From positions 1 through 64,000 of the IMG/VR virus record IMGVR_UViG_3300005533_000002: a DNA stretch of 64,000 bases, one strand, 5' to 3'. Positions 47,248-48,590 of this stretch are shown one piece after another. The notes under the pieces were generated by a model. The model made no database searches, was not told the origin of the DNA, and saw only the letters and a list, made by a program, of their open reading frames with translations. This DNA comes from a virus. Both the position numbers and the translations under genes were made by a program. Every line of letters starts with the position of its first letter. Position 1 is the stretch's first letter.

Positions 47248-48333
47248 ATGGCCAGCATCTGGCGTCCCATCTACACCGCTTCTGACGGCACAAGGCGACG
47301 TAGCCCAGTGTGGCGTATCGCGTATTTCGACGAGAACGGCGAACGGCACCAGATAGCAGGATTCCGGTCGAAGTCAGAAACTCTTGAACTGGCGAACAAA
47401 ATCGAGCAAGATATTAAGCGGGCCAAGCATGGCCTGCCGGCGGCAGCCAACGCCAACCTGCTCAAAACGGTGGATGAGGCCATCGAAGAGTATCTCGGCG
47501 AGCTGAAGCGTCTGGGACGGTCTAAATCACACTTAGCCAACGAACGCGGCTTTCTCGCCCGGCTGGCTTTCGCCTGCAACTGGAACGTACTGGGAAACCT
47601 ACGTGAGAGCCATTTGCTGGCGTACCTGGCGAAGCTGCACGATGAGGGCAAATCCCCCCGGACCCAGAATGCCTACCGGGACGCTGCATCGGCATTCGCG
47701 GGGTTCCTTGTGCGCAGGAAATGGCTGCCAGAGAATATGTTTCGTGCTGTGCCGAAGGCGAAACTAGCCGGGCGTAGACCCCGGCAGCGACGTGCCTTCA
47801 CGCAGGAAGAGTTCAGTAAACTAGCCGCTGTGCATCCGCAACGCGGCCCGGTGTACCAGGTTGCTGGATTGTCCGGGCTGCGGCGTGAAGAGCTAACGCT
47901 GCTGGAGTGCCAGGATTTTGTTCTCGGCGACTCGCCGCAGTGGCGCGTCCGTGGGGAAATCACGAAGGGGAAGCGTTATGAGATAGTGCCGATGCTGCCC
48001 GAGTGCGCAGAGATACTGGCGCGAATCTGCGCCGGCAAGGCCGCGACGGATCGGGTTTTCGCCAGCGTACCCATCCCGCGAACCTTTAACCTGGATTTGA
48101 CTCGGGCCGGCATCAAGAAGAGAGACGAACGCGGACGGCAGGCCGATTTCCACGGGCTGCGGTACTTCTTCTGCACGTTGGCGGGGCGAAAGCTGGCGAT
48201 TCAAGTTGTGCGGGCTCTGATGCGCCATCGTGATATCCGCACTACCTGCAATCTCTACATGGACCTTGGAATTGAAGACGTGGCACAGGCAGCTTGGAAG
48301 CTACCCAGGCTACTGGTATACGGTTGTGATTAA
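47248..48333 (+). CDS. int: Tyrosine recombinase integrase
   Basis: 361 residues from ATG 47248 (the frame extends to 47203 without a good start). An N-terminal arm-binding part, a SAM-like core-binding domain, then the catalytic domain with Arg in GLSGLRREELTL, Lys in EITKGKRYEI, H-x-x-R in DFHGLRYFF, and a later MRHRDIRTTCNLYMDLG with the nucleophilic Tyr. The next region is attP, as expected. It should catalyse integration at a tRNA-Ala gene. Confidence 0.92.
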   Translation: MASIWRPIYTASDGTRRRSPVWRIAYFDENGERHQIAGFRSKSETLELANKIEQDIKRAKHGLPAAANANLLKTVDEAIEEYLGELKRLGRSKSHLANERGFLARLAFACNWNVLGNLRESHLLAYLAKLHDEGKSPRTQNAYRDAASAFAGFLVRRKWLPENMFRAVPKAKLAGRRPRQRRAFTQEEFSKLAAVHPQRGPVYQVAGLSGLRREELTLLECQDFVLGDSPQWRVRGEITKGKRYEIVPMLPECAEILARICAGKAATDRVFASVPIPRTFNLDLTRAGIKKRDERGRQADFHGLRYFFCTLAGRKLAIQVVRALMRHRDIRTTCNLYMDLGIEDVAQAAWKLPRLLVYGCD

Positions 48334-48590
48334 GTATACTGCACAAGTGGCGCACAAGTTTTTTCTCTCGTTTTCCCTAACTCATTGGAGGATAGGGGAC
48401 TTGAACCCCTGACCTCTTGAATGCCATTCAAGTTCGGGCAGTATCGGTGCTACCGGTATGCTACCGGTCGGATTGTCGAACATACACGCACGAAATGAGT
48501 TGCGACCGATTCATGAACGGACGGTCATAGTGAACATGTGTGATTTTTCCAGGGAAAAAAGCCACAATAGCGCACAAGTTGCGCACAAGT
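48300..48590. other. attP region with paired arm-type repeats
   Basis: Left arm: GCTACCCAG (48300) and GCTACTGGTA (48309), 9 bp apart; GCACAAGT at 48341 and 48352, 11 bp apart. Core: tRNA 3' half (48386-48432). Right arm: GCTACCGGT at 48449 and 48460, 11 bp apart; GCACAAGT at 48572 and 48583, 11 bp apart. The same two repeat families flank the core on both sides, as lambda Int arm and accessory sites do. Confidence 0.8.
48386..48432 (-). tRNA. tRNA-Ala(GGC) 3' half, att core
   Basis: On the minus strand: anticodon arm CTTGA-ATGGCAT-TCAAG (GGC, U33 present), variable AGGTC, T-arm AGGGG-TTCAAGT-CCCCT, acceptor 3' strand ATCCTCC and A. No 5' half follows, so it is a fragment that would restore a host tRNA-Ala on integration. 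Confidence 0.85.

Follow-up and report, generated by a model that had tools for sequence, protein, structure and literature searches.

The window, a stretch of 64,000 nucleotides, derives from a virus record of 77,116 bp and contains a gene for a tyrosine-recombinase integrase of 361 amino acids (Int; plus strand, 47248–48333). The ATG start was picked by alignment with relatives, and the longer open reading frame (47203–48333) matches Pfam family PF00589 with E = 3.8e-10. The catalytic residues R212, K240, H302, R305, H327, and Y337 are invariant across 20 aligned relatives, and the family profile matches XerC/XerD-like and lambda Int structures; conservation in the 20-sequence alignment is too low for use in scanning. 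Residues 6–62, where an arm-binding N-terminal domain was sought, are predicted by a low-confidence model to form three strands followed by a helix. No close relatives of the integrase were found in viral contigs. Divergent from int, a minus-strand open reading frame (45747–47150) combines a C-terminal DNA methylase domain (PF01555) with an N terminus that looks ParB-like.

The 3′ end of int points at a 47-bp core (48386–48432, minus strand), which lies 52 bp away and reproduces the 3′ portion of tRNA-Ala(GGC), anticodon stem to discriminator base. An earlier note on this DNA had named tRNA-Ala(GGC) as source of the core and as target gene, and had proposed a search for intact tRNA-Ala genes that end in it. 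Such genes were indeed found: all 47 bp are matched exactly in 10 stretches from nine genomes, all Planctomycetota, and ARAGORN calls an intact tRNA-Ala(GGC) gene in each of the ten. The block of identity extends from the first anticodon-stem base to the discriminator base, and the preceding bases differ from the phage in 10 of 10 cases. No other viral contig contained the core. The host most likely belongs to the Planctomycetota, and the site is most likely used for insertion into its alanine-tRNA gene. Two of the ten stretches stem from one genome, in which contigs L002 (1–126) and L009 (1155–1230) overlap and break at this very tRNA-Ala(GGC); the break could reflect strain variation through insertion, or merely the assembly.

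Within the core, the anticodon stem-loop (48416–48432) presents the inverted halves CTTGA/TCAAG around 7 bp (48421–48427), which we propose as core-type Int sites and overlap region, respectively. Inverted core-type sites flanking an overlap region are the usual shape of the sites of tyrosine recombinases.

Two families of paired repeats surround the core, and the four pairs listed in the earlier note, like the core itself, lie exactly where it had placed them. Three of these four are spaced by 11 bp, as it had stated (9 and 11 bp in the GCTAC family, 11 and 11 bp in the GCACAAGT family). The GCACAAGT pairs, both on the plus strand and proposed as Int arm-type sites, are found on the int side (48341–48359; copies at 48341 and 48352) and on the far side (48572–48590; copies at 48572 and 48583). 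They are the sole case in the 77-kb record of an 8-mer that occurs twice 9–13 bp apart and does so again >50 bp away, an arrangement seen in 0 of 60 simulated genomes. Three other viral contigs possess a GCACAAGT pair; none of them has a matching integrase, and we therefore took these occurrences as chance. A degenerate extra copy of the far-arm block follows at 48651–48670, where ACAAGTGGCGGTAGTC resembles CACAAGTGGGCGGTAGC at 48584–48600.

The second family consists of GCTAC-type sites. GCTACC (48300) and GCTACT (48309) form the int-side pair (48300–48314, plus strand, spacing 9) inside the 3′ coding end of int, and the far-side GCTACCGGT pair (48449–48468, plus strand) displays GCTACC at 48449 and 48460 (spacing 11). 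Two pairs had been overlooked in the earlier note, namely an inverted GCTACC pair at the distal end of the site (48595–48613, minus strand; GGTAGC at 48595 and 48608, spacing 13) and a GCTACYGGT pair in the 5′ leader of int (47205–47226, plus strand; GCTACCGGT/GCTACTGGT at 47205 and 47218, spacing 13). The elements assigned to 48300–48590 are all present, and with these additional pairs the site continues to about 48613. In all 77 kb there are only four same-strand GCTAC[CT] pairs at 8–14 bp, against a simulated mean of 0.21 and a maximum of 2; they lie in the int leader, in the two attP arms, and in the inverted pair just past the interval given originally.

The extended motif GCTACYRGT is found 13 times in the record, with 1.0–2.3 occurrences expected, and 10 of the 13 fall within 43.66–48.47 kb. 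Sites at 43663 and 43687 (43663–43695, plus strand) overlap predicted divergent promoters, an inverted GCTACTAGT pair (44429–44465) lies upstream of a minus-strand open reading frame of 73 amino acids (44158–44379), and a single GCTACTGGT (44980–44988, plus strand) between two minus-strand open reading frames adjoins a promoter-like match; all of these promoters are consensus matches only. The single hexamers GCTACC and GCTACT are common and exhibit no obvious clustering in genome-wide 6-mer counts, and the non-random signal resides in the pairs and the 9-mer. The pair pattern is unspecific, as it occurs in at least 119 stretches in viral contigs.

Integrase relatives in Planctomycetota

A search of 392 Planctomycetota genomes with the integrase gave a match at E ≤ 1e-20 in 55. 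A tRNA gene is located nearby in 32 of 34 scanned loci, in most cases oriented with its 3′ end toward that of the integrase gene. The relatives (27–37% identity) adjoin tRNA 3′ ends, and these distant elements are integrated at other tRNAs. For most relatives a duplicated tRNA 3′ end is present in the DNA beyond the integrase, with matches that are short and weak in L112, L122, and L126. Where the core was fully recovered, identity starts at the anticodon stem or a few bases away, as in the window.

Among these distant relatives, selected by integrase similarity and scanned with a 7/8 match choice and window lengths that were set during exploration, the int-side arm (the 200 bp that precede the 3′ end of the tRNA, 28 loci) contains direct-repeat pairs with a 12-bp pitch in 21 loci (shuffles 2.9 ± 1.4) and with a 10-bp pitch in 16 (shuffles 3.0 ± 1.5), and the far arms contain 12-bp pairs in 9 of 13 (shuffles 1.1). 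Among pitches of 8–25 bp, none of the others was comparably prominent on the int side. A 2+2 layout of direct repeats with the 12-bp pitch surrounds the core at most of the junctions that were recovered. In four relatives all four repeat copies agree at 32/32 (CGCCAACA, CTTGTACC, GCTTACAG, and CTTACAAA), a value never attained in 156 arm swaps between elements (maximum 31). In the stretches read, the 2+2 motifs of the relatives are almost limited to the att sites. The paired repeats around an anticodon-stem tRNA core in integrated relatives lend independent support to reading the phage site as an attP.

Tentatively, the phage may belong to a large Planctomycetota integrase family with an att architecture of its own, comprising two identical direct repeats at an 11–12-bp pitch per arm and an anticodon-centred tRNA core. 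A second paired family would be part of this architecture and would here also provide the operators of the lysogeny region, so that excision and the early promoters might be under the control of one protein. We regard this generalization as possible and somewhat doubtful.

The int-side 10-bp-pitch pairs of four distant elements, L120, L125, L127, and L017, have GGTGCGA/GTGCGAC in common, while their 12-bp-pitch motifs differ; the sharing possibly reflects a common accessory protein. In L257, the far junction of element L120 displays two tRNA-Asn 3′ fragments that are 777 bp apart (about 10394 and 11171 in reverse-complement coordinates), possibly the leftovers of a second element.

Proposed assignment of the repeat families

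Strand exchange by the adjacent tyrosine integrase would most likely occur within the anticodon loop (7 bp) of tRNA-Ala(GGC), with the inverted CTTGA/TCAAG stem halves holding the integrase. Once the phage has integrated, the 3′ part that it carries would make the tRNA beside int whole again. Arm sites for the N-terminal domain of Int are most likely provided by the four identical GCACAAGT copies, which point in one direction and lie two per side at an 11-bp pitch; Int bound to them would fold attP into an intasome. For the GCTACYRGT pairs, the most likely role is that of sites for a phage regulator that doubles as excisionase and would link excision to early transcription, like Apl in phage 186. 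The sequences, the match to the host gene, the integrase family, the rarity of the repeats, and the like architecture of integrated relatives are observed; we infer the exact cut positions, the assignment of proteins to repeat families, and the control of direction.

The assignment of the GCTAC family to a regulator/excisionase is favored because further copies of its sites are found in the int leader and at neighboring promoters (43.6–47.2 kb). The same operators at att and at early promoters, the latter recognized by consensus match, are what characterizes Apl/Cox-type proteins, and the GCTACYRGT family looks like operators of such a regulator/excisionase rather than plain arm sites. The earlier note had treated both families as arm sites; the pairs are real and flank the core, but the GCTAC family is not specific to attP. 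The 73-amino acid product of 44158–44379, a candidate excisionase, has no Pfam match and no fold match, and its structural model is weak (mean pLDDT 62.5). That no excisionase was identified counts against our explanation, and so do three differences from the relatives: the pitch is 11 bp in the phage versus 12 bp in the relatives, the long and short arms are reversed, and, counted from the core, it is the GCTAC pairs rather than GCACAAGT that occupy the position of the relatives' 2+2 sites.

This order from the core outward (int side outer, far side near) would be expected if the roles were exchanged, with the GCTAC pairs as Int arm-type sites, Int repressing its own gene from the leader pair, and GCACAAGT bound by an accessory protein. 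Precedents exist in the Cluster J mycobacteriophages, which have arm sites in pairs as well as arm-like sites where int begins (PMC3706429), and in KplE1, where IntS represses its own gene (PMC2951348). However, GCTACYRGT is also found at promoters distant from int (43663, 44429, and 44980), the spacing of the GCTAC pairs is uneven (9, 11, and 13), and near-confinement to att, as seen for the relatives' 2+2 motifs, is a property of GCACAAGT in the phage. We consider the exchanged roles rather unlikely.

Distinctly less probable is that GCTACYRGT marks partition-type, parS-like sites for the ParB-like protein encoded at 42449–43429, unrelated to recombination. Some of the sites adjoin the ParB-like gene and CTACTGGTAG is almost palindromic, but attP contains two direct pairs and the int leader another, as expected of an excisionase/regulator, and none of the open reading frames examined was noted as ParA-like.

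Free form of the phage and nature of the site

The ends of the virus record carry an exact direct terminal repeat of 110 bp, and the attP core is present as a single copy in the 77-kb record. Genes for capsid, portal, terminase, tail tape-measure, helicase/primase, and ParB-like proteins are located on both flanks of the site. The terminal repeat, the single core, and the phage genes on both sides together argue for an attP and not for an integrated junction. Metagenome contigs can include a prophage end, but these same three features, the absence of the 5′ part of the tRNA, and the intact integrase make it very improbable that the site is a non-functional relic or one junction (attL or attR) of an integrated prophage.

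A free form with one core copy, an adjacent tyrosine integrase with the R-K-H-R-H-Y set, and a core that equals the 3′ part of a host tRNA and starts at the anticodon stem are all found here. The site thus conforms, in all but integration itself, to the definition of a tRNA-targeting tyrosine-integrase attP of the anticodon class. The earlier reading as an attP is borne out by the terminal repeat, the single core copy, and the tRNA-core and paired-repeat layout that appears independently in integrated relatives. We judge the attP real, complete, and well supported, and of a kind already known. Taken as a whole, it is highly probable that a temperate phage of Planctomycetota uses 48300–48613 as its attP, with Int exchange in the anticodon loop, GCACAAGT as Int arm sites, and GCTACYRGT as sites of a regulator/excisionase. 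It counts against this explanation that no integrated copy of the phage was found and that its portal protein is unmatched in the 392 Planctomycetota genomes. Terminase relatives number in the hundreds at identities of about 40% or less and are uninformative on the attP.

Comparison with known attachment sites

In lambda attP, the 3′ end of the integrase gene lies beside the site, the int-side arm is short and the far arm long, and inverted core-type sites flank 7 bp. The phage site has all of these features, and the 2+2 GCACAAGT copies provide, by sequence only, arm-type sites on both sides. In contrast to lambda, two paired families are present on both arms, and, unlike the phage target, lambda attB is to our knowledge not a tRNA gene. 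The description "lambda-like" in the earlier note is apt for the layout, with its integrase 3′ end beside a shorter and a longer arm, but no IHF site was detected in the arms at ≤1 mismatch to the consensus, which is that of E. coli and may not be the host's. In view of this negative test, classing the site with the lambda-type attPs is probably not warranted.

The attPs of the Cluster J mycobacteriophages Omega and BAKA lie just 3′ of a tyrosine integrase gene and combine a tRNA core of 44 bp, delimited at the anticodon loop, with an arm-type direct-repeat pair per side and related sites at the start of int (PMC3706429). The phage site shares this arrangement, with a core of 47 bp. The Cluster J sites differ in their target (tRNA-Leu versus tRNA-Ala), in the single repeat family described for them, and in their actinobacterial host.

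Apl of phage 186 binds direct repeats spaced by one helical turn that are common to att and early promoters (PMC7498355). The second direct-repeat family of the phage resembles them in its pitch of 10–11 bp and its recurrence at early promoters, whereas 186 attP has five adjacent Apl sites and the phage has pairs with a putative binder. Anticodon-centred sites are one of the main classes of tRNA sites, and the tRNA-inserted genomic islands of Islander class A share the anticodon-centred 3′ tRNA fragment as core (PMC4383910); unlike these islands, the phage site represents a free phage form with an inferred host lineage.

For an uncultured phage, the site predicts a host group that can be tested, the Planctomycetota, and the gene used for insertion. 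It also reveals a repeat layout common to many related mobile elements, and the arm sites of an uncharacterised integrase family, with their 12-bp pitch in both arms, become readable from sequence alone. Genetic tools for Planctomycetota are few, and integrases of this kind would, once their sites are mapped, be useful additions.

Beside the capsid gene, ARAGORN reports a tRNA-Tyr with the rare anticodon ATA (1184–1256), a call that may be spurious. Between the helicase and primase/helicase genes, about ten repeats of the TTGTCGCA/TGCGACAA type in both orientations (36536–36810) form a cluster that looks like replication-origin iterons.
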